The translations under genes and the position numbers were made by a program. A stretch of 64,000 bases of DNA, taken from positions 40,655,236 to 40,719,235 of the forward strand of contig CM055900.1 in the NCBI GenBank assembly GCA_029582155.1, in the 5' to 3' direction. This document shows, piece by piece, positions 5,881 to 51,700 of this stretch. The number at the start of each line of letters is the position of its first letter. Positions within the stretch are counted from its first letter, which is position 1. The notes under the pieces are model-generated. The model saw nothing but the letters and a program-made list of their open reading frames with translations. It had not been told where the DNA came from and did not search any database. The stretch comes from Panopea generosa (Eukaryota > Mollusca > Bivalvia > Adapedonta > Hiatellidae).

Positions 5881-6734
5881 TTACAATGTGACGACCGGTC
5901 CATCCTTATCCTGCTTTGTGACCCCTTCGTCATATTTTTGCTTTTCACTCCCATTACTTCTTCCACTGTCATTGTTTCTGTTGCTTCTATCAAGTTTTTC
6001 GCCATTACGGTTTTTATCCAACTTTTCACTTTTTTCACTCAACCGACTTTTTTCAGACTTTTCACTTCTATCACTCTTGTCACTTTTGGAACTTTTATTT
6101 AAGTAATCCTGCACCTCATCTTCATCATCTTGTTCTGCAATGAGGTCACTGTCATAAGACTTTGATGACTGTCTAGAATGCCCAGAGGCAGACGATAAAT
6201 GTGAACCATGTGACATTTGTGAATATCGCCCCACTCCTCCGCGCTGAGGGGCCAATGTCAACCTCTGGTTGACAGGTTTCACTGTAATAATCAAGTTAGA
6301 ACTATTCGCTACCATCATGTCTGTTACCTGATCAAGTGTCTTACCACAAACTTCTATACCGTTCACCTCTAAAACTTCATCATTCACAGCAAGAAGGCCT
6401 GTACTCTCCGCTAGACCACCAGGTACCAAACGAGAAATAAAAATGCCAGGCACTTTCTCCAAACCCTGGGGGGTAACTCGCACACTTGTGCCATCTCTAA
6501 TGTAAAATCCAAGCGGTTTATCGGAACCGTTTTTCATCAGTTTCACTCTCCGATGTTGCTCTGGGACGATATCAACATCAATAATTGCAGAAACCCTTCG
6601 AAAGTCTTCAGGCATCCCTATTTGAAATCGTGACCTTGGGGCATTTGGTGAATCACTACTCAATAGTTTTGTTAGAGGCTTGCGTTTTTTAACATTCAGC
6701 GTTCCATAGCCATTTATCTCTGCATAGTTATCAC
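5881..6734 (-). CDS. par-6: par-6 coding exon 3 (semi-CRIB, PDZ, C-tail)
   Basis: The acceptor is TTTTAAG right of 6734, and the exon joins exon 2 in phase 1. It carries the linker with basic KKRKP, the semi-CRIB, the PDZ domain and a tail with repeated [13 protein letters not shown]-type Ser/Lys/Asp runs, then the terminal VVTL and a TAA at 5881-5883. Semi-CRIB and PDZ on a single exon make this the most reliable gene segment in the left third of the window. Confidence 0.97.
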
Positions 6735-7982
6735 CTTAAAATTCAAACAAAAAATATTAATAATAGTTTGTCATCAGCAAGTTTCAGTGGAAATGTAAAA
6801 AGAGTCATGTGTTAGTTGTGGTGTAGACCTAAATTGTATATCGAGAGTCTTACACGGGTGCTCATTTATTATTGAATTTATCAAATAAATTTTGCCAATC
6901 AGTTTTATAAATTAATTATTAAACTGAGCATGAATGTAAGACTCTTTTTATTACATAACTCAGGAAAACGATATATTAACCATTTATTTAACAGACCACC
7001 TCTATAAGGAACAAGAAAACTTATCAACCACATTAGTTTCCATCAGTTGTCATATGACGCAACGTCTCAAAATAACATTATTTTGCCATGACAAATTGAC
7101 ATCATTAACATAATTATATTCGAGCAAATCGGAAAGATGGAAAGTAGTTAGACTCTTTGGTTTAATACATATGAGAGCCGAATCATACGGAGAAAGAGCC
7201 AACAGAAGTGATATTACATTAGGGCAATATCAAAAATATGTTATTACATTCCTGCACCGTGAATTACCGGTATGTGATAAATACCATGTATCATATGAGC
7301 ACCACATTGGTGAACATCTCACTCACCTGCCAATTTTCCAATTCTGATAATTTTTCAAGAAGACATGAAATCATGACCAACGTGTGATCAGGAAGTTATT
7401 AGTCATTAACTGGACATTATGAATACCAATTATGAGGTATGTTTATAACTGGTAAAAATGAATTAAGATATAGGTATGGATACATTGTATAGTATGACAT
7501 TCCTCGAATGTTAGGGCCATCTGGCACGGCAACACCATGGGAGTAATGAGATGATTAATCAATTTAAAAAAATGTGCCTCAAATATGGACCAGCCGGTGT
7601 TTGAGGTATGAAGAGCAGGACTAACAGTCACGCTCACCCTACTGATGGACAAGTAATATATAAAGACTTAAGCTGCCATTTGTACAGGACAAGTTAACAT
7701 TAGAAAATTTAACAATGCAAAACATAACAAAAGATCTTAATAATTTTGTCCATGAATAAATTCATTTTTAAAGAAAATATTACAGAAAAGGTTTATAAAC
7801 AAAAATATTTCATGAAAAGCACGCTCGAGTAATATAAACTAATAAAGAAATGAAAATATTATTATTGTAAAACAAAGTGGGTGGGAAATATCAATTAAAA
7901 ACTTTTTGAACAGCAACTGTAAATTCATTATATACACTTGGTATAAAGTTGTGTTGAAACACGCTTTATCTGGATATAGCCA

Positions 7983-17458: not shown

Positions 17459-20400
17459 GTAAGTGTTGTCTGCTGAATGTTTTGAAAATCTATGTCAGTT
17501 TTCAGGTTCAGCGTTTCTGAGTTTTGACGTTCGTAATTGATTGTTTTACCAAATAAAACGAGCTGTAAATGATGACCAAATTTACACTTATTGTATGGCG
17601 TTATTATGCTGTTTAATTAAGTGTTGGCGATAATTGCACTGCGGTACATAGAAACACCGGAAAACACCGAAAAACACAGGAAAACACCGGAAAACACTTT
17701 CAATATATCAAATTTAACATTGATGTGCTTGTTTAATACCAGTTTCTTTATATATTACTCTATTTACGACAATTGGATATGTGTTTTTCGGTTTCCAAAG
17801 TGAATATTAACACCGGAAAACACCTAAAACACCGAAAAACACAGGAAAACACCCAAAAAACACCGAAAAACACTATCATTATATCAAATTTATCATAAAG
17901 TAACTTGTTTAATACCAGTTACTTTATATATTACTCTATTTATGACAATTTAATATGTGTTTTTCGGTTTCTCAAGTCATACGGTTAGAAACAACGGAAA
18001 ACACCCGGTGACCGTGAAATCTGGAAAGGTGTGACAATTACCAATACTTGCAATATTCTTACAGTTTAATTAAATTTGAACATTTAATTATATTAAATGT
18101 AAGAAAAAGCATTAGACAGAATAATGTATGTTTAAGTTTTTATTTATCCTCGCACTTTGAACAGGTCATTTTGGCGAGCAGGATAATTATTAAAAGATGA
18201 TTATCACAAGTGTATATGATTGATTGATGAATGATTATGATATCTATTTGACAATGATTTCTCAAACTTTGAAGATTATATTGAGAACTCGAGAAGATTA
18301 TGGTTATAAAATTCAATTATCTGCACACACTATTTGGAGGTTGTAAATAATTATCATAATATCTGGCTGCAATGTTTTCAATTTCTAAATATAAGGTCTT
18401 GTTGGTATGATGGTTATTTTAAATATATTGAATGTATGTATAATATATGTATGTAATGAGAAACATGAGATGTTTATGTTATAAATAAAGAAATCTAGAA
18501 TCTATATTTGTGTTAGTTCATCAGCTTAAGTCAATTGATTAATTAATGCAAATATGGATCACAAAACGAAGCCTAATTAGTTAATTATTAAGTTGGGCTT
18601 TGTTGACACAAATGTAGAACAAACCTTGATCACTCGTATGTCAAATAAGCCCAAGTAATTGCTAAATTAATTAATTGAGATTGGTCGAAAAAACTGTAAC
18701 ATGGTTCACTCGTATGTCAACCAAGCAAAAAACTGTATATAAAACCCCCCTAATGTGTCTTTATGAACACAATCAAATTGATTTCAATAATATAATAATG
18801 TCTTCTTCCTTGAAAATAGCGTTGTATGGAGATAGCTATATATCACGTCTTGCATTTTATTGCAATTTTGATTTGAAGGTAAGAATTAATGTTTAAACGA
18901 TTAGTAAACGCATTATTTTTATGATTGACTACATATTTATTTAGCTTTAAAATACCACTCTTCTATCTAAAAATAACTTACATACAAATATTATGTTTGC
19001 TTGTCCGTGTTTATTTTATACAGTAATGGAAATAAATATTTTATAAACTATATAATTGTATAGGTTTGAATCTGTCTGTTAATATACACTTTCTGCTGTT
19101 TTACTAATGATTGTTTCCCAATTATTTATAGGTACCCAGCAACATACAGTTTTTTGGTAAAGGCGGTATGATGACAACAAAACAAGACCCTGGGAATTTC
19201 GAAAGACTCACCATCTTTAAGCCGGACGTAGTTTTCGTAAATATTGGCGGGAACGATATTTCAAGCACCTCACAACCTGCAGATATCGCCAACAACATTT
19301 GTAAATTAGTGTCTTCCCTTAAAAATAACGGTGCAGAAACTATATATGTGGCGGAATTGTGTGAAAGGGGTATATTTAAGAAAGATCCTGAATTAAGTAA
19401 AAAATGTTTTAATGCCCAGAGAAACAAGATAAACATTTTGTTAAGTCGCAACAGCGATTTAAGGTTAGTGAAACTGAACATGCGCTTTCCAAAAGATTAT
19501 GCAGACGACAAGGTGCATTTCAGGGATCCAGCAGGACTTTCAAAGTTTTATTATTCAGTTAAGAGAGTTCTATTACAACATAAGACCACGTGAGCATGTA
19601 TTGATTTAATGTAATAAAAATGTTAGAAATGTAAAATAAATACACTGAAAGTATTATTCTGAATAAATGTAAAAATTGCATGTACGTGTTCATTTGTTTC
19701 TATGAAGTAATTATTGGATCAAACGATTTATTACAGGTCTTCCTTATTCAAACTTGCGAAAAATATCGACCTGGTTGTCAAACACGATTTACCACCAGGG
19801 TATAATACAATTATCGAGGTACAGTTGTGAACAACTGCCCATTGTTTTAATAATCTTGTCACTATGTACAAACATTAATTATCGCAAGGGTTATCAATAA
19901 CTTCGGTTGTGAATAACTGTGCATTGTTTTAATAAACATCTGTACTCGTCACTATGTCCAAACAATAATTATCACTGATGTTAAAGACGCCGATTCGGTT
20001 ACTTTAAAGGGGTCTAAAAAAACAATGTGCCCTAATGTGAATTATAATTGTTTGTAATTGTAATTATTGAGATTCCAAATAATTCGAAAATGTATATAAA
20101 CTAAGCCTTGAATCGGACATGGTGTCACTTTTTCATATTTCACGATGGATACATGTCCGTGTGTAATTTGCACCAAAGAGTGTCAAAATGATACCATACA
20201 ATGCTCTAACTGTCTTAGTTGGGTGCATGTAAAATGCGCAAAAATGGTTGATAGTGACTTAAAATCATGGTCAATTAAATCTTTGAAATATTTGTGTAAG
20301 TGCTGTGCATTCAGTGGAATAGATTACAATTCAAGAGCTGCCCTGGCAAGGTAAGACAAATTATTCATTATTCAACGTGTATAATGTTAATATTTTTTAT

Positions 20401-21711
20401 ATCATTAATACAACCATTAATGTTTTATACCAATCAATATTTTTTTTTTTTTTGCAAATTATTATCATTTTTTAATTTGACGATTATTATAATTATGTGT
20501 ATTAATATTTTTATTATTATATACTAAACGATACGATATTTGGTCATTTTTTTTTTCGACGTGTATATACGATTATTATTTATAAACAATTTCTTATTAT
20601 TTGATTATTATTAATATTTTTATCAGTATTATTATTGTCAACAATTATAATTAATCAAAGATCATTATAAGTATTATAAATAAAAATCTATATCCACCAA
20701 AAAGATTAATAATTTAAATACAGATTTAATTTAAAAAATGTTAAAGATACAAAGTATATAGGGAAATTTTTTATTCATATATATTTCAATGTTTTCTACT
20801 AATCTAATCTGTATTTTCAACAAACATTTAACAAATACAATTAAACTTTATTCATATTAATTACATACTATAATTAATGTTATAATAATTGGAATAAACA
20901 TATACTTAATCGGGTTAGCTGCCCGCATGTCACGCTAACTGGATTATCACACCTCCCGTGGATAGTCGCATGTCGGTGTATCTTGTACACAGGTATAACG
21001 CGTGCCGCCTCTATGAAGCTACTGTGTCGGTAGCAGGTAACAATAGACATAGACATCATGAATAATGACATTAAAAATTAAGTGGAACTATTTAAAAACT
21101 GTATATATAAATTAATAATACAGTAGTTTACTCTTGTTAATAAATAGTTCTTTAAATCGACAAATTTAGAACATTTCCTCTTTTAAAAGCATTAAAACGA
21201 TATACAGTAATACTGATAATACTTTTCTCATCTTTCAAGCTTAATACTATTTAATACATGTTTAGCGACTTATTTCTTGACCAATTAGTTTTGAAGAAAG
21301 TTTGCCTAAACTTTTCATACTCATTACATTCAAAGAAGAAGTGAAACTCATCTTTGACTACAGAAATATTATGTTTCATATATATAGGACAGAATCTTAG
21401 ATTTAAAATGTTTATAATGCTGAGATTTAGGAGAATCGTTCCCGTCTATTAACAGTGATGATTATGAAGAGTCACCCCTGCGGCTACATGTTAAAATTCA
21501 TATTAAACATTTAAAATGCTGTTTCTTAAATATGTTATTATTAATATTATTATTATGATTATTATTATTATCATTATTATTATTAATATTACATGAATTT
21601 ATTCCACTCACATTATTCGGTCTCGTCCTACCATAGTTTTAAAAAAAACCACTTCACTGCTGTTTCTTAAATATGTTATTATTATAATTATTATTATTAT
21701 TGTTATTGTTG

Positions 21712-21760
<49 letters not shown>

Positions 21761-24700
21761 GATTATTATTATTATCATTATTATTATTATTACTACATGA
21801 ATTTATTCCATTCACATTATTCGGTCTCGTCCTACCATAGTTAAAAAAACCACTTCAGTGCTGTTTCTTAAATATGTTATTATTATAATTATTATTATTA
21901 TTGTTATTGTTGTTTTTATTATTATTATTATTATTATTATGATTATTATTTTGATTATTATTATTATCATTATTATTATTATTACTACATGAATTTATTC
22001 CATTCACATTATTCGGTCTCGTCCTACCATAGTTTTAAAAAAAAACCACTTCACTGCTGTTTCTTAAATATGTTATTATTATAATTATTATTATTATTGT
22101 TATTGTTGTTTTTATCATTATTATTATTATTATTATTATTATGATTATTATTATCATTATTATTATTATCATTATTATTATTATTACTACATGAATTCGG
22201 TCTCGTCCTACCATAGTTAAAAAAACCACTTCACTGCTGTTTCTTAAATATGTTATTATTACTATAATTATTATATTATTATAATATTATTATTATTATT
22301 GTTGTTACTATTATTATTATTATTATGATTATTATTATTATCATTATTATTATTATTACTACATGAATTTATTCCATTCACATTATTCGGTCTCGTCCTA
22401 CCATAGTTAAAAAACCCACTTCACTGCTGTTTCTTAAATTTGTTATTATTATTATCATTATTATCATTATTATTATTATTGTTGTTACTATTATTATTAT
22501 TATTATTATTACATGAATTTATTCACCTCACATTATTCAGTCTCGTCCTACCATAGTTAACAAGAACACTTCACTTTCAGGTTGCAGACAGCCCTCATCG
22601 GCAAGAAACATGCAACGCTCATGACTGTTGCTAAAACAGAGAAGAAATTGTTGGAAGCACATCATGTCGATGTACCTGAGGGTGATATGCCTAGATTTAC
22701 TGAAATAGATCCGGTATCTGTGACAATACTTAAAAGTATCACCCAGCTATGGCCATTAATAACACACCTGTCAAAACTGTAGGTGATGGCAACTGTCTTT
22801 ACAGAGCTGTGTCGAGTGCGCTGAGTGGATCAGAAAGATATCATGAACTATTAAGATTGAAAACTTCGTTGGAGTTAATTTTAAATTGTAATTTGTACAA
22901 TACAAATATCAAACTAAATGATGTTGTTGGTGACAATAGAATCGTCACTGGTGATTACCAGAGTATAGTTCATGACGCGGTATTCATAAATTCATTCTCC
23001 GGGCTCATGCACATGTACGCATTAAGCGCTGCAATTGGAAAACCAATTCGGTCGTATTACCCGCCACAAATTAATCCGGAATATTCTTCGGAACCTCATA
23101 CACGGCGGGTAATCGGTCGCGCAGTTAGCAACCACTTTCCCGAAATATGTGTGATGTGGACATGTGTGACAACACCAGTATCTGTGACTGAGTTCACACC
23201 AAATCATTTTGTACCGCTGGTAGCGAAGAACAGTCTTCAGCCTGCGGTACTGGATATAAGTAATACTGTATATGACGATGTTTCATCAGTTGATACATCA
23301 TCAGTTTCAATGACTGCCATTGACTGTACATCATCAGTCAACTCAGCAATGGCAGTCATTGAAACTGATGATGTACAGTCTAAACAAAACTTTCTGTTTC
23401 AGACACAAATGATATATCATCACTGTCAATGACTGCCGGTTCTGAATTGACAGATGATATACCATTTGTGTCTGCAGCAGAACCAAACAGTGAAACACAA
23501 GGGGTGCTAGATACGGGGTTCTTGGAAACAAGCATAGTTGTAGATTTATTAGCGAATGGAACTGTAGGGTTGGCTAAAATTCCGGGGGGTATTAAGCAAA
23601 ACGTGTATTTCGTAATTGAAAACTCAAACAACCAAAATAAATGGGCACAAAAAAAATCTAGTTCTTTCTCTGATGACTGTGGGGTTTGGGATACTTCAAG
23701 CGGGACCTCTCCAAAAACACTCTATTTTCGGGATATGGGGGGACTTTCGGTAATTTTTTTCAAAGATGGGGAATACTGCACCAAAAAGCGCATCCAACGG
23801 AAAATAGTGTATGTGCCTATGAATCCGCAACCAGAGAAATACCAGGTCGTGGCTATTCATAGGCATTATACAACATTGAAGTTGGATGCTTCATACAAAA
23901 AACGAGTTTCGTGGTTAGGTGATGGGGGTTTGGTAAGTAAATTTGCAGTTGTTGAGTATTTAGGAAAGTTCCCCGGTCTAGCACCACATGGCAATTAAAA
24001 AAAAATCGGACCATCAGACTACCTCCGCACACCTGACTATGTTATGACTGACGTTCAGGACATGGTCACAAAAGACAAACCAAAACAAGTTTATGAAAAA
24101 CTTAAACACAAATATGACGAGGTTACTCGACCCACTGGTCTGCAACAGATAAGAGACAAAAAGAAATACATGACAAGTAAAGAAAAAACATATTCTGGAC
24201 CTAAAAAAAACATTGCAGACCAAATAAACATTTTAGAAAACAGGGTGTCTGACAATGACAAGTTCGTAAGGTCAATTGTTAGGACTAATGGCAAGACACC
24301 CTGTACACGGACGAACAAATTACGGACCTAAAAAAACTCTGCTGCAAAGGTCATACAATATTAGGTGTTGACAAGACGTTCAACTTGTGTGAAACGTAAG
24401 GTCAATGAAAGGACGATGACAGCAAAACGAACAAAAATTGAAAATTAATTTGTATTTTTGTTATCAAATACTTAAACAATGCTTGTGATACACACGCCGA
24501 GAATCCTCTTGTTGGGAGCTCCAGCTACTGGGGTGGTAGTGCATGACAGGTACCCTGTTTAAGTTGTGTTCTTGAAACAAATGTACAAATTAATTATTCA
24601 AGTGCGGGGGTGTCTGGTCAGGTTTTTGTAAATAAAACTGTTCTATGTATAAATATGTATATTTGTCTTTATTTATAAACATTATGCTTGTGATACACAC

Positions 24701-27700
24701 GCCGAGAATCCTCTTGTTGGGAGCTCCAGTTACTGGGGTGGTAGTGTATTGCAGGTATATTTTTATAATATTTTGCAACAAAATTGAATTTTATAGACAA
24801 TAATGTTATTCTGAATTGACATATATTTATATTTCGCATTTTCATACCTTATACTTTACATAATTATGTGTTTTTTTGTGTATTCATGCATGATTTATCT
24901 TTTACTTATCATAACTTTTACAACGTACTTTCATTTTAACATCTATGCATCTATACATGTGATATATATTTTTTATAACATTTTCAATGCATTTAAATTT
25001 TATATGTTTATATTTCACACCAACAACCTGATACTTTTTACATCAAGGTCCCTATATGCAATAATGTTATTCTGAATTTACATATATTTATATTTCGCAT
25101 TTTTCGTACCTTATACTTTACATATGTGATTTTTGTCTAGTCATGCGTGATTTATCTTTTACTTAACATAACTTTTACAACGTATTTTCATTTTAACATC
25201 TATGCATCTATACATGTGATATATATTTTTTATAACATTTTCAATGCATTTAAATTTTATATGTTTATATTTCACACCAACAACCTGATACTTTTTACAT
25301 CAAGGTCCCTATATGCATTGTTATTCTGAATTTACATATATTTATAGTTTGCATTTTCTTACCTAATACTTTACATATGTGATTTTTGTCTAGTCATGTG
25401 TGATTTATCTTTTACTTATCATAACTTTTACAACATACTTTCAATTTAACATCTATGCATCTATACATGTGATATATATTTTTATAACATTTTCACTGAA
25501 TTTAAGTTTTATATGTTTATATTTCACACCAACAAACCTGATACTTTTTACATCAAGGTCCCTATATGCAATAATGTTATTCTGAATTTACATATATTTA
25601 TATTTCTCATTTAAATACTTGTTACCTTTACAATTAATGTTACTACCGCAATACTGCTTTTTGTTATTTTCTTTTGTACATTTACTATATGACATTATCT
25701 TGTTTGTTTGTATTAAAAATAAAAGATGTTGATATTTACTAAATTATTGTTTTTGTTATCACTAGTTTGTATAAATTATTGATGCCTGTCCAAAACCAAT
25801 TAAAAAGAATACACACAACAATAATCTATAATATATTTACAGCCATTGGTAATTATCACACGTGCCAGATTTCATGGTCACCGCATACGAATAAATGCCG
25901 ACATGAGAAATCGAAAAACACCTACTAAATTGTCAAAAATAGAGTTTACGTATAGTAATTGGTATGAAACATTTACATTTTTAATATTTTAATACGTTTA
26001 ATAGTGTTTTCCGGTGTTTTAGGGTTGTTTTCCGGTGTTTTTGGGGTGTTTTCCGGTGTTTTAGGTGTTTTCCGGTGTTTTAGGTGTTTTCCGGTGTTTC
26101 TACATACCCATTGCACTGTAGGATATACCTGTTCTACTTCTTGTAATCGCAATCACAAATGAGAAACAAGCACATAATTACAGACTTATCATTCATTCTC
26201 CACTAACGTGAGCTATCAGGGGTGGGGTAAAAGTGAAAATGTGACCAGAGCAGACTCGTTTCACTCCATATAATGAAACCACACATCTGAAGAACTCGAA
26301 TCCATACTGGTTGATCGTAAATAATTTGTGTTTCAAAGATATGACGCTTGCAATACATCAACCTGATATTACCATGCACAGATACGTTACCTCTTAACAG
26401 AACAAGTTTCAAGCCATTAGATTTAAACTGCAAGAATGGCCTTTTTCAGTGCTGTGGTATTGTGATATGACGTACATCAGAGGTTACATTGTTCTGGTGG
26501 ATATTAAGATTTCTAGTATTTTATTGCACTATTTGAACAAATCATTCAATTTGCAGTTTCAAATTTTGTAGTTCAAGTGCATTCATGATTTAACTTTTGT
26601 ATGTATTGATTTATCCAGCGTTAGTTAATTGTGTTTAAATTTGAAACCCCAAACATGGAATATAGGATAGCAAATTATGACGGATGCATTTTCTCCATAA
26701 TAACTTAACCAAAGCAACTAATTGAATGTAATGCAAGAAGTAACGTATCTGTCCATAACTTAAGGCATTCAAAGGCATTCAATAAATATGACAAAACAGT
26801 TTATATATGTGAATAGAACGTTTAATAGCTAAAAATTGGCATGTCTTCATTATAGACAACACAAAAAGTATACTTCCATTAGTGTAATTGTACCACATAT
26901 TCCCGCTGCACAAAGTTGATAAATAAACTATGGATTTTGGGGAGGTTGGGGAGTGGGGTTTTTCAGAATTATGTGGAATATAGAAATAAATAACATACTG
27001 AAATCTTGATGCAAAGTATTATATGACTAATTAATCCTGCAGAAATATGATGCAACTGTAAAGACTAAAATGATTTGAAGATCGATCTCGATAGACAGCT
27101 TGCTTAAAACAATATCACAATAACAATAATCAGTTTCCTACAGAACACTGTTACACTGTAGAATCTAGCAGAACCAACAAATGACAGTGGTTCGGACGCC
27201 TGGCAAATTTTAGTTATGCATGAAACCCAAATACTTTGAGAAGGCCACCGAACTTGAATTTGGTCCTTAGCATTGTGCTTTGACAAGAAAGATACATGTA
27301 TATAAAAACTTCCTTGTCCTCATCGGTTTTTTTAATAAACAAGTATTTGTCAATGCACTGTGACGTAAGGTTGACTGGTGGTATGATGGGTTTTGTCTGA
27401 TGAGTTGATGTTTCAAACTTCTGTGATGATGGGCTGATCCTACGATGAGCCTTCAATATTGACCTGATAATCAGTGGATTTTGCTTGTGCATGGGAGACT
27501 TTGTGTTCCTTCCAACTGTCACAAACAGTATCTCCTTTTTCATCTCTTTTCATTGCAGCACATTTTCTTTCCCTGTAAAAGTACTCGGTTCCTTTCTTCT
27601 TTTGCCATTTCAGCTCTTAACTTAGCCATGTCCCTCCAAAAATGTTTATACATTGATTTATAGTTTTATTTTGTTTAATGTTAATTTTGTGAAAAAACGT

Positions 27701-45700: not shown

Positions 45701-48700
45701 TCTTTTTACAATGTTTACTGTAGGCCTATTCTTAGCATAAAAATACGTCGCATTGTTTTAAACTGTTTCAACCCGAGACAAGGTGACTGTCTGTTTTTAG
45801 CACCTCTGACATTTGATTAAAATACATGCACAGTAGGGTAAAATCTCGCTACACATATACATGTTAAAAAATGGATGGATGTAGATTTAAAGATGATATG
45901 AGTATTAAAAAATTCTTACTCTATTTACAAAATCATCAATGTAAATATTGATGCAATATGATAAAAGAAAATATGTAAGTAAAGGATGGATTATTGAAAA
46001 AGTAGGCATATGAAAACAGGGGTAATTTATATTGACAACATTACATGTAGTGTAAACTAAGTTTGTGGGTATATGATTTCATTGTCTAGGCTCCCCAAGA
46101 AATCAACAAAAATTAGTACCCCACGAAAATTAATGATTTCACAGTATTTGAGAATATAACTTTTCTTACTGTAATTGTTGGGAACATGAAGGGTATCTGG
46201 GGGGAAGGGTTCAACGATACATGTTACCATGATGAGTTAAATAAATAATTATCCATTTCATCTGTGACATGTAAACATATACTTTAAAAATAGATCTTTG
46301 TAAAGAGTATAAACATTCAAAATTGTATGTAAATTTAGGTTTATATTTATATGAAAGTTTATAGTTAATATCTGTTTATTGAGTTTCAGGGTAATTCATC
46401 ACTATGGCAACAAGATGTTGATTCTGTGAGATTTAGTTGCAGTGATGAGTCTCTAGATTTTGGTTCCCCTGATGCACACAGCACACAGCTGGACTCGAAG
46501 ACACAGCTGGACTCAAAGACACAGCTGGACTCAAAGAAAATGCCTAGTGTTCCTACACGACAGAGTCTTAGGTTAAAACATTGCAAATCACCTTGTGTTT
46601 CCTGCAGTCGGGTAAATTTAGACAAAGTTGATTTGAAGGGAGATCTGTTAGAAGATAAGGATAATGAAGTAGTTTCCAAAGCAAGACCAGAGTATTTAGA
46701 TACCACACCAGATGGCACTTGTGGATCTTTAGCAATTGACGAAGGAGAACGTGAACCCTCTCCAATTGTGATAAGTTCTGATTCACTTACTGAAGGATCT
46801 GAGGAATCTACTAATGATGTTGCTATGGCTCACTTTCATAAGTCACCGTTCATTAATAACCGGATTTTTTTGCTTGAGAGGAAGTGGACTAAGTGTATGG
46901 AAGCCCTGAAGATGAGAAGAAAAGAACTGAAAACTTGTGAAAAGCAGGAGCTTGACAGATTGTCATCACTTGCAGAGGAGAGAGTAACTTTAAAAGGTTG
47001 TGATGACATTATCATAAGTGGAGAACAGAGCCAAAGTGTTGATTCCGCATCATGTTCAAGTAAATCTAGTTACTCTGTTTTAAGACAACAGCCCTTTGAA
47101 GAAGGTGTAAAAAAGAGGCCTGATGGTCAAGAGAATGAACTACAACCAAAGAAACATGAACCTGAACATTCACAATTGTCTGCTTCATTCAATATTGATA
47201 TAAACTCTACAAAGCTCAAAATTGTTAAAGATTCAGTGACAGGAAAATGGTGTTCAGTTGCTGTGATTGGTGATTCAACTGCAGAAAGTCAAGTGGACCA
47301 TTGTGATGCCTCATCAGTTATGACACCAGATCAAGTGCACAATAGCTCATCAGATAAAAGTGTCATTTCCCCATCTCCGGAAAATCACCAGTCTTTTTTT
47401 ACACAAAAAGCAGAGAAACAATGGCATGAAATCAAAGCCAAACTTTTTAATATTTCTAATTTGACAACTTCGAATTCCTTACTGGAAAAACAAAGTGAAG
47501 TTAGTGATAAAAGAAATTTTACTGAAATTAGCATCGAAAATGATCCATTAGTACCTAAGAATAATGCATCTTCCCAACAAAAATCAAAATCAGTTTTGAG
47601 TAACACATCATTGAAATCGTTGTGTCAAGTTGTTATAGACCAAACTGAGAGTTTATCATTGCAAAACATGCTTAATAAGGCACAGTGTGATCATTCAAAT
47701 AGGAATAAAGTAGAGAGTGACAAGAGTAAGACTCCAGAAGTACTGGAACTTGAACAAGATGCTTTTGAAGAAAATGCTAAATCCGCTAGAAATATAGTTG
47801 AACATCGTGATAATGAAACTGAAAGGATTGCTGAAGACAATGTAGAATGTGAAAAGGCGCAAAGAATGGTGGCCCCAGTAACAGCTTCAAGTGGCATAGA
47901 CATGGAGAAGTATAAAATATCAAATGAAACTTTAAGACAAATTGAACAGTCCATTTCCTGGACTACTGGTGAGAGTGATGAAACGCAGTATGATTTGAAA
48001 CATGTTACAGCTGATAATAAAAGTCAAACATCTGAAACTGACACAAACGGTATACAATTGGATAAATCACTGATGATTAAATATTATAATCAAAAGAATT
48101 CACCAAAGAAAACTAAAAAATGTCATGTATTATCTTGCAAATCAGTTGAAGGTTCTACAGACACAAAATGTTCAGAAAAAGAGGGTGAAGGTCAGAATGC
48201 GATTTATGAAGAATCTGTTGATGAAATAAATGAATCTGGTGATTTCAAAAGAATTGTTTTAAAGGAGGTTAGTAGTGAACATATAAGTACAGTATTAAAT
48301 GAAAATGACAACTGCGTTGAAGGAAATAGTGAAACTATTTATCCAAATTCCAAATGCACAAACTCATTGGAAGATTTCAATTCTGAAATTTTTTCTGGAA
48401 ATGTTTTATCCAGTGTTGAAAATGCCTGCAACCAAACAGATCTTGAAAGCATAAATCAATTTCATATAGAAAATATAGTGGAAAACAATATACATAAGCT
48501 TGGACATGGTATCAAGGATAATGTTGGGAGTGAAGGTGATTATTATATTGCAATACCGTGTCTGAAGGAAAGTCTGGAAAATAATGAAACAAATAGAGGT
48601 AATCAAATAAATTCACACATTGACTGCATTGGTAGTGAGGTTGATTCAAACATACGTGCTAAAAATAAAAAATCAATAGCGAATGTCGCTGAAATATCAA

Positions 48701-51700
48701 TTGAAAATGTTGATGATTTTATGGATAATTCTGGGGTAGAATCTAAAAATAAGGAAACAGGGAATGTGGAAATACAACATTTAGAGACTGTGAATAGAAA
48801 ACACATAGTTAAAAGCATGGAACCAACATACTTTGATACTGAAAGTACTAGTAAACGGAGATCATATTTATTGAGAAAAAAAGTAGCATTAGCCAGAAAA
48901 ACAGATAAAACTATGGCAAGAAAGGAAAACAATATGATACCAGCAAATGTTGGAATAACAAATTCTTTCAATAAAGTAGTAAATGGAGAAAGACTTGGAA
49001 AACCAAATTCAAATGATGAAAGTGAAAAGTCAGTAAGAGATGAGAAGGATTGTGATGAGTCGAAGAGTATAGTCAGTAATGATCAACAACACAAAGGGGG
49101 CAGCAATCCAGTCAATTCTAAGGGAAATGAGTTGAAAAAATCACAAAATAATGTTTTTGTAAAAAATGGTCAACAAACGAATGACAATATCAGGGAAAAC
49201 GCTGAGGATGTCAGTTCTGGGTCCACATTAAATGTTCCATCAGTGCTAAGTTGGGAAAATGCATTTAAAAAATGGGTTTTAAAGACTGATGTACAAGAAC
49301 CTGGTGCTGTTATAGATACAAATAAAAACTTAAACTGTAAAAAACAAAGGGATATGTTAAAAGAAAATAACCATCCTGAACCTCAATTTGATGTGTTAAA
49401 TGACAATAAGAAAATAAACAAAAATGAAGACAGAGATAGGCAAAACAATGTTGTGTTAAATGAAAATGAGAAGAAGAAAAAGAGGCAAGAAAATGCTTCT
49501 GTAAATGAAAAATCAGCTAGAAATGAACAAAGTGCTGCATTTAAGCGTACAAATGGGAAAACAGGTAAAAGAAGACAAAAATATGCATTAAAAGAAAATG
49601 AGAAGATGGATAAAAATGGAAACACTTTAAATGAAAATGACAAAACAGCTAAAATGGGGCAAAAACATACTTTAAAAAAAAACAAGAAATCAGAAACTGA
49701 TGATCTAAATGTTGAGTCGATTAAAACAGTTTCAGCTAGTAACAATGATGATGTACATGTAACAAATGCAAGCTATTTATGTTTTGGAAACGAAACAGCA
49801 AATAAAGAAAGTCAAATGGAAAAAAATGTCTCTTTGTCTGAAAAAAATCAAAGTCTTGTTAGCAAAAGTGAAAAAGCTGAAGAAATAGATAAAGTATGTA
49901 TAAAAAGCAAAACATCAGAAACAACAATAGGCATTTCAAAACAAGAAGACAGTGTTCATTTAACAGACACTCAGCCATTTGAGATATGTGAGTATTCGCA
50001 GACTCAACCATTTTCTCCTGATTTAACGAGCCCTCCACCATCCCCCCTTTCGTCAGAACAAGAGATATCTCCTCAGATTGAATCACTTTCTCCTGTTTCA
50101 TCAAACACATTGAAATCATCCACACCTAGTCACAAGTTGTCTGTAATCAATGTTTCTCCTGCCAATAAACTAGAAGAAAACTCGGTTATGACCATAAATA
50201 TATCTGAAAATAGTCAATTTAGTTCAGAAAATCAACATTCATTGAATTGTGATATTAAATCTTGCAAAGTGCCGAGTAAGTTAGAGGTCCAACCAGTGCC
50301 AATAAAAAACAAACAGAAACTACCTAGTCATGAACATATTGTGAATGCCTTACCAGTTAAAAATTGTGAAGTGCCAAAATGCTGCAAAGGACATGGTTTG
50401 TTGAAAAACAGATATGGCATAATGCTTAAAAGAAAACGATCATGTGATAATGACAAAATTCAGAGTGGCGAGAAAAGGGTTGAAAGGAAATTTGAAAAGG
50501 TGAAAAAATCAAAACATCCTGATTCATTGATACAAATGTTTTTGCACAGTTCAAAGAATAAATCTGTAGACAATGTTAGTGCCACTGTGATGAAACCAGG
50601 TTTTATTGGCATTCCTCCATTGCCCAATGAAACATTTAAGCAACCCTGTGAACAGTTTGTTGTTAAACCTAGAAAAAGGAAAGGTCTTTACCTGGATAGT
50701 TCAGATCTTGTAGAAAGTGAAAACATAAAGTTAAAGAGACAAAAAACATATGAACCAAAGAAAATTTACATTGATGGCCATTGTTTTGGGAAAAAGGTAA
50801 ATTGGATGAATTACATTGAGTCACCTAAATCAAATCAAATAGAAACTTCAAATGATGATATAAAAGAAATGCAACAGAAGCATGAAAGTGAAAGTAAAAA
50901 GAACATTGGACAGTTAATACAGAAACAAGTTAATGGAATCCACAAATTCTTCAGAGTAACTCCTGATCGAAACTCGGATGAAAGATTCGATGTGAAAGAT
51001 TCAGATGAAGTTATAGGCATGGGAAGCAGAGGTTATGTCAAGAAAAAATTGCCAGTGACCGAAGTATTAAAACTTGATAGAAATAATATTGATAACACAA
51101 CAGAAGCTAATGATGTAAATGTTGTTGAACCAAATATAAACCCTAATTGCAAGAAAGGTGCTTTTAAAATGGCCAGGACAGCTGCAGGAGTAAATGTTTG
51201 CAAAGATGCAGTTATTAATATCTCTCCATCTCACAGATATGCTGATAAGAATGCCTATATTCATGACTGGATTCAGGAGGTCTCTCAGACAACAGTTGTG
51301 GATGATATTCTGCAAGGTAAGAATGATGTTGCAATATTGTGTCACATTAAGTGAAAAATGTTATTTTCATATCAAGATGAGGTGATCTTCCAATTGGGCC
51401 ATATTTTATTATCTATTTTACAAACTTTTTCTTTTAAAGAAATAGGGTTGGAGGATTAATTGAACAACTGATTGAATATAACTGAAAAAGCTGCTGTTCT
51501 TTTGGCTAACTTTTTGTAGAAAAATGCTAATACCGGTATTCAAAATTGTTGATGTCATCTCTCTTTGATAGTATTTGGTATGATATCAGTTAAATATGTT
51601 TGTGACATTTCAAAATATTTGTCTAAAAGAAACGTGTATTAAACCTTTATACATTTGCAAATTCCTTGTTTTGATAGTTTAACGGTCTAAAAACATCAAA

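Follow-up and report, generated by a model that had tools for sequence, protein, structure and literature searches.

What kind of mobile unit, if any, unites the genes for an SGNH hydrolase, a PHD finger, an ovarian-tumour (OTU) protease and a transposase remnant that lie close together in the genome of the bivalve Panopea generosa? The stretch concerned, called the window below, is the whole of 64,000 nucleotides from contig CM055900.1 of assembly GCA_029582155.1 (positions 40,655,236 to 40,719,235), and an original prediction made from its sequence had placed all four within a Mutator-like element (MULE) at window positions 17642–26109. Our analysis indicates that this unit very probably belongs to a Mutator-like cut-and-paste family with two genes, a PHD-OTU-MULE transposase gene and an optional SGNH gene, and that the window copy is dead. 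The structure, mobility and gene layout of the element could be read directly from the window and its relatives. Comparison with eukaryote genomes was confined to the window's own genome (1.47 Gb in 39 contigs, the window being on contig C7).

Ends and mobility of the element

The unit is flanked on both sides by the exact 9-bp sequence ATTGCACTG; the chance of a 9-base match, computed for the base composition here, is ~1e-5. The left tip begins CGGTACATAGAAACACC and the right tip, read as reverse complement, begins GGGTATGTAGAAACACC. Two blocks among the 46 inverted pairs listed join the ends, one of 31 nt at 90% identity (17643–17673 with 26078–26108) and one of 46 nt at 89% (17933–17978 with 25900–25945). 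The predicted coordinates proved exact, and the perfect duplication and both blocks on which they rested were recovered. The MULE superfamily is marked by a target duplication of 8–11 bp, usually 9, by long terminal inverted repeats and by a MULE-type DDE transposase; the terminal inverted repeats of the window unit can be aligned, with gaps, over ~290–430 bp, as is proper to a MULE. The terminal features are the following.

17633..17641, left 9-bp target duplication ATTGCACTG, exact match to the right copy
17642..18068, left inverted end, containing 10-bp tandem units (AAACACCGGA)
24798..25612, tandem array of a 257-bp unit in 3.2 copies, preceding the right inverted end
25822..26109, right inverted end, containing 10-bp and 19-bp tandem units
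26110..26118, right 9-bp target duplication ATTGCACTG, exact match to the left copy

With the 711-bp OTU sequence as query, at least six further full-length places at 96–98% identity and at least two partial ones at 98% were found. The family to which they and the window copy belong is called family 1. Six of the seven family-1 insertions for which both ends were read have a perfect 9-bp duplication, and the genes move together, so that the claim of one mobile unit was confirmed. The five duplications outside the window, compared by eye, are these.

C4:10146018, GGTCGTTGT
C1:68050712, CTAATCAAC
C4:11858360, CAGATTTCG
C4:51949589, TCGAGAATA, the same insertion being also on C30
C14:66.98 Mb, GTTTTGGAG

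The 0.3-kb insertion at C4:51949589-51949907 corresponds to C30:203373-203748 with identical flanks, one contig being chromosome-sized and the other small, and the assembly probably retains a second haplotype of this region.

Family-1 units range in length from ~0.3 to 8.6 kb, and deletion derivatives are therefore common. In the 3.7-kb derivative at C4:10146018 the SGNH gene and PHD exon survive, and its identity to the copy at C3:15.4 Mb is 99.93% over 2911 bp and 100% over stretches of 396 and 179 bp, from which recent movement follows. The window copy is itself a dead derivative, with frameshifts, a stop codon and an 871-bp deletion. Ten other copies were fetched, and seven of these (one each on C6, C7, C10, C15 and C19, and two on C3) have the 864–872 bp that are absent from the window copy at ~24392; the C12 copy carries more sequence at this site, which the copies on C8 and C9 do not span.

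A predicted spliced PHD-OTU-MULE transposase

The genes of the window copy are laid out as follows.

18798..18878, plus strand, SGNH exon 1, 27 codons with the GDS block, from the reading frame and a GT-AG intron
19132..19593, plus strand, SGNH exon 2, 153 codons and stop, from Pfam Lipase_GDSL_2 and splicing
20145..20350, plus strand, exon 1 of the transposase gene, encoding the PHD finger and ending in phase 2
20351..22580, plus strand, intron with TTA-rich tandem arrays (21526-22575)
22581..24448, plus strand, OTU-MULE exon, broken by frameshifts, a stop at 23996-23998 and the 871-bp deletion at ~24392
22782..23220, plus strand, OTU protease domain, from Pfam OTU and alignment, with GDGNC and NHF motifs retained
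24000..24391, plus strand, transposase remnant ahead of the deleted DDE part, from alignment to the C3 copy

No MULE match was found by Pfam in the seven window frames scanned, because the 871 bp at ~24392 are gone. The transposase remnant named in the original prediction is nevertheless real, as alignment to the C3:15.4 Mb copy (L009) demonstrates, and in that copy PF10551 (MULE) scores 28.2 bits against a cut-off of 27.6. There a single reading frame of 923 codons runs open through the OTU-MULE exon (OTU 23.6 bits, cut-off 23.3), the SGNH and PHD exons are likewise open, and the predicted splice gives a PHD-OTU-MULE protein of 985 aa that is in frame through to the final stop. Profile searches, which had been proposed as a check, placed the window SGNH and OTU (25.7 bits) and the C3 MULE domain above their cut-offs, but left the window PHD finger, at 23.9 bits, just under the cut-off of 24.0; PHD scores 24.1 bits in the C3 copy and 27.2 in family 3, described next. 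The best PDB match of the OTU sequence was OTUD1 (E 0.035).

In both the PHD exon end and the OTU exon start the phase is 2, and the junction reads R-LQTA. The same donor, acceptor, phase and junction are shared by a separate family, family 3 (C13:7653063), whose transposase is 52% identical to that of family 1 over 821 aligned columns; the D, D and E regions of the two align. The ends of family 3 are distinct inverted repeats of 282 bp (93% identity), flanked by a 9-bp duplication, GTTTTTTTG, where the sequence is of low complexity; in the copy at C13:7653063 the OTU part is frameshifted. Because the phase-2 splice is in frame and common to family 3 at this distance, PHD and OTU are predicted to be N-terminal domains of the transposase, encoded by one spliced gene, and not cargo. 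The idea that they ride beside the transposase, held in the original prediction, thus had to be abandoned, and separate PHD and OTU cargo genes were ruled out on the predicted in-frame splice of PHD to OTU-MULE.

Linkage across the genome is of the same kind. A listed transposase match lies within 15 kb of 12 of the 47 PHD matches (0.02 expected), always downstream and on the same strand, and three of these 12 are family 1; the count used 82 listed transposase positions, with second pieces of one place left out. One of the 12 pairs includes an open OTU-MULE frame of 931 codons at C4:70279673-70282435, which is 30% alike to family 1 and has a PHD match ~7 kb upstream and an OTU score of 18.7 bits, under the cut-off of 23.3. 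No inverted ends were found round it in the 10 kb read, and it may have been domesticated as a gene, or may be an element whose PHD intron is long.

As a side observation, PHD exons of family 3 that are identical over 64 residues occur at five places (C12:11821543, C5:85935009, C5:85941704, C8:33597798 and C13:7657097), and family 3 may, to judge from this identity, have been recently mobile too.

The SGNH hydrolase gene

The SGNH hydrolase is the sole extra gene of the element and is separate from the transposase. It has two exons, a GT-AG intron and 180 aa. Exon 2 of the window copy alone matches Pfam Lipase_GDSL_2 (E 5e-9, 37.3 bits, cut-off 32.9), a PDB sequence search with the same exon gave no match, and the copies from the window, C3 and C16 retain all catalytic blocks, in line with the complete esterase-type enzyme that had been claimed. 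Exon 2 contains the GGND and D..H blocks.

Thirteen DNA matches to the gene were listed in the window's genome. All ten long ones are embedded in family-1 element sequence, and four of them belong to units whose duplications were read on either side (the window, C4, C1:68 Mb and C14, the last a gene fragment). The copy at C1:62161423 has element sequence alongside and a PHD exon, with no terminus seen. Among the 13 matches no near-identical copy outside element sequence was found, unlike the cargo of Pack-MULEs, which is a recent host-gene fragment found elsewhere in the genome.

The nearest SGNH genes beyond family 1 (40–44% alike) led to a second family. Its unit at C16:43583889-43588021 has inverted ends of ~490 bp at 91% identity, a 9–10 bp duplication, a two-exon SGNH gene and a frameshifted PHD exon with a matching donor. 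At 42% identity, families 1 and 2 have the SGNH intron at one common position, after FDLK. Among seven pairs of family-2 ends, a perfect 9-mer is common to both ends in three (C16; C3, with the left tip damaged; C15, where the site is rich in A), an 8-mer was recognised by eye in one (C5), and the other three have none (C9, C4, C17). The C9 unit has the order PHD(+), SGNH(-), transposase fragment(+). At C4:6892441, PHD(-) and SGNH(+) were found with no transposase match, at C3:3221549 PHD and transposase with no SGNH match, and at C15:44855005 SGNH and transposase within TATAAAAAG duplications. A further lineage on C11 has PHD(+), SGNH(-) and transposase(+) across 12 kb, with no ends seen.

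A third SGNH lineage, ~33% alike, comprises L070 (C14:54328900-54331620) and its relatives. Some 400 bp downstream of the SGNH, on the same strand, there is an ATG and a PHD-like half exon (MVKTYPCSVCSENCKTSCIYCE, then GTAAGT), and SGNH copies of this type lie within ~2.5 kb of a MULE transposase match at C9:72902140, C12:14648877 and C2:64801890.

Selection was assessed by comparing coding and non-coding differences from the C3 copy in a one-sided Fisher test, the copies not being independent. When the near-identical C1, C4 and C8 copies are removed, the remaining six SGNH copies have 28/2649 coding against 93/5170 non-coding differences (p 0.007); of the nine copies taken one by one, C19 and C1:62 Mb give p below 0.05. 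For the transposase, coding differences are significantly rarer than non-coding ones in five of the nine copies (C15, C7:30.1 Mb, C10, C12, C3:89 Mb), the test being not significant in the window (p 0.09), C6, C9 and C19. Three family-2 SGNH copies have a ratio of nonsynonymous to synonymous change (dN/dS) of ~0.8–1.2, giving no sign of constraint. Selection on SGNH is thus weakly supported, and the case for its usefulness rests mostly on frames that stay open, with every block retained, in the copies of the window, C3 and C16, which come from families 42% alike. That family 3, with its own inverted ends and duplication, lacks the gene makes SGNH an optional accessory.

Alternative explanations

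Could the SGNH gene instead be a host or retrotransposon gene, captured more than once and passively carried, as in Pack-MULEs and the texim-Helitron? We regard this as a serious possibility, only slightly short of an even choice. The gene lies in the sense direction upstream of PHD in family 1 but antisense between PHD and transposase in family 2, which speaks for repeated capture, as do its absence from family 3, the family-2 dN/dS values and the uptake of texim by a fish Helitron described in PMC4021074. Of the 41 SGNH loci outside family 1, moreover, 37 have no listed transposase match within 12 kb. Yet the remaining four exceed the 0.05 expected by chance, even though two are copies of one family; only transposase matches were counted, which was judged fairer than an alternative marker set partly seeded by one SGNH locus. 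Capture also fits poorly with the intron position shared by two families at 42% identity, with the retained catalytic blocks, and with the lack of a near-identical SGNH outside element sequence among the matches listed.

That the unit is a member of the Rehavkus group, with an OTU domain and SGNH added, seems to us rather unlikely. The Rehavkus elements of Repbase are described in PMC6446971 as having a MULE-like transposase with a PHD finger, a minisatellite ahead of the right terminus and a 9-bp duplication, and the present element resembles them in its PHD, its 9-bp duplication, its long inverted ends and the tandem array before its right end. However, the 257-bp unit of this array is long for a minisatellite, the likeness is one of features and not of a sequence tree, and the table in that source assigns OTU to MuDR-6_HM (Cnidaria) and Rehavkus to arthropods and annelids; neither OTU nor SGNH is listed for Rehavkus in that description.

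Chance nesting of a CR1-like long interspersed nuclear element (LINE) first open reading frame (ORF1) and other pieces inside a MULE is hardly to be credited, although PHD or esterase occurs in CR1 and L2 ORF1s (PMC4120745), because both genes have introns and splice in frame where such an ORF1 has no introns and is followed by endonuclease and reverse transcriptase, no reverse transcriptase match was found in the seven frames scanned, and related combinations recur at independent insertions and in diverged families of the same genome. As to a viral or phage source, no pattern match was found in the viral contigs and no match in the phage records.

Against the reading of a two-gene MULE family stand several observations, some of them already met. 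The open-framed copy at C3:15.4 Mb showed no target duplication when its ends were read, 35 of the 47 PHD matches and the 37 SGNH loci mentioned above are without a listed transposase match nearby, and no OTU was seen in the portion of the family-2 transposase read. Over all nine SGNH copies the selection test gives 29/3816 coding against 94/8885 non-coding differences (p 0.068), and in C14 the trend is reversed. The PHD-OTU splice is a prediction from sequence, and a single-sequence OTU structure prediction was useless (mean pLDDT 31). Relatives lacking the genes had been named beforehand as grounds for rejecting the unit: PHD-OTU-MULE is in fact shared, but no SGNH is present in the family 3 unit at C13:7653063, which is partly a mark against.

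Comparison with known elements

The published systems are compared here as the papers cited describe them. MuDR-6_HM of Hydra (group 14) is a MULE with an OTU motif (PMC6446971) and in this resembles family 1, in which OTU is above cut-off in the window and C3 copies; its description lists no PHD, SGNH or inverted ends. Ulp1 and PHD occur in Mutator transposases, OTU or Ulp1 in Ginger1, and OTU in Helitrons (PMC2836005). Family 1 likewise has a transposase fused to PHD and to a cysteine protease of ubiquitin or SUMO type, but the Mutators described there have Ulp1 in place of OTU and no SGNH, and Ginger1 has a Gypsy-type integrase, C-terminal extra domains and no SGNH. SGNH/GDSL esterases are reported from LINEs, long terminal repeat (LTR) and Penelope-like elements and a fish Helitron (PMC4120745, PMC5408684, PMC6431247, PMC4021074). 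The texim-Helitron resembles family 1 in carrying an intron-bearing SGNH gene on a DNA transposon, and differs in being rolling-circle, with a 15-exon gene and no PHD-OTU-DDE transposase (PMC4021074). Esterase and PHD in CR1, L2 and RTEX ORF1s, and GDSL in the LTR element Vesta and in Athena, are the same kinds of protein, but in retroelements with neither inverted ends nor DDE transposase (PMC4120745, PMC5408684).

In a survey of bivalve transposons that curated 39 MULEs, the main text contains none of the whole words PHD, OTU and esterase (PMC10294476); an arthropod MULE survey likewise has none of OTU, PHD and SGNH in its main text (PMC13359780). The original prediction knew of no MULE with all the parts, and none with PHD, OTU and SGNH was found in the literature searched; Repbase lay outside the search, and an unpublished or database-only entry is possible. 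Each module is known singly in other transposons.

Proposed roles of the modules

The first gene (PHD exon, intron and OTU-MULE exon) would yield the transposase, whose DDE part would cut at the long, repeat-rich ends and insert with a 9-bp stagger, by the chemistry of the MULE superfamily. The PHD finger would probably dock the transposase onto histone tails, and the OTU domain would probably act as a deubiquitinase, either on the transposase that carries it or on local chromatin or repair proteins; proteases of OTU/Ulp1 type may aid DNA repair during or after transposition, according to PMC2836005. For the SGNH protein a lipid- or acyl-directed helper seems likeliest, by analogy with LINE esterases. 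One of these, ZfL2-1, binds acidic phospholipids and, when tested with an assay kit, did not deacetylate histones (PMC3905857), which by analogy may count a little against an acyl-mark role for the family-1 SGNH.

We suggest tentatively, and without leaning towards it, that PHD and OTU on the transposase and a resident SGNH, as accessory and not passenger, form a working kit for transposition that one clade of animal MULEs has maintained for a long time. If true, LINEs, Helitrons and Ginger elements would have assembled this kit piecemeal. Modules of PHD, OTU or Ulp1, and SGNH recur across unrelated transposons, and here one recently moved family unites them. One genome holds a copy with open frames, deletion derivatives nearly identical in sequence, and relatives that either have or lack SGNH, so that the contribution of each module is directly testable.

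Other features of the window

Outside the element, an open frame of 1661 codons at 46369-51354 (plus strand) is probably a giant exon, with no Pfam match at E 0.01. A PDZ-domain exon at 5881-6735 (minus strand; Pfam PDZ, 44.2 bits) may belong to a PAR-6-like gene.

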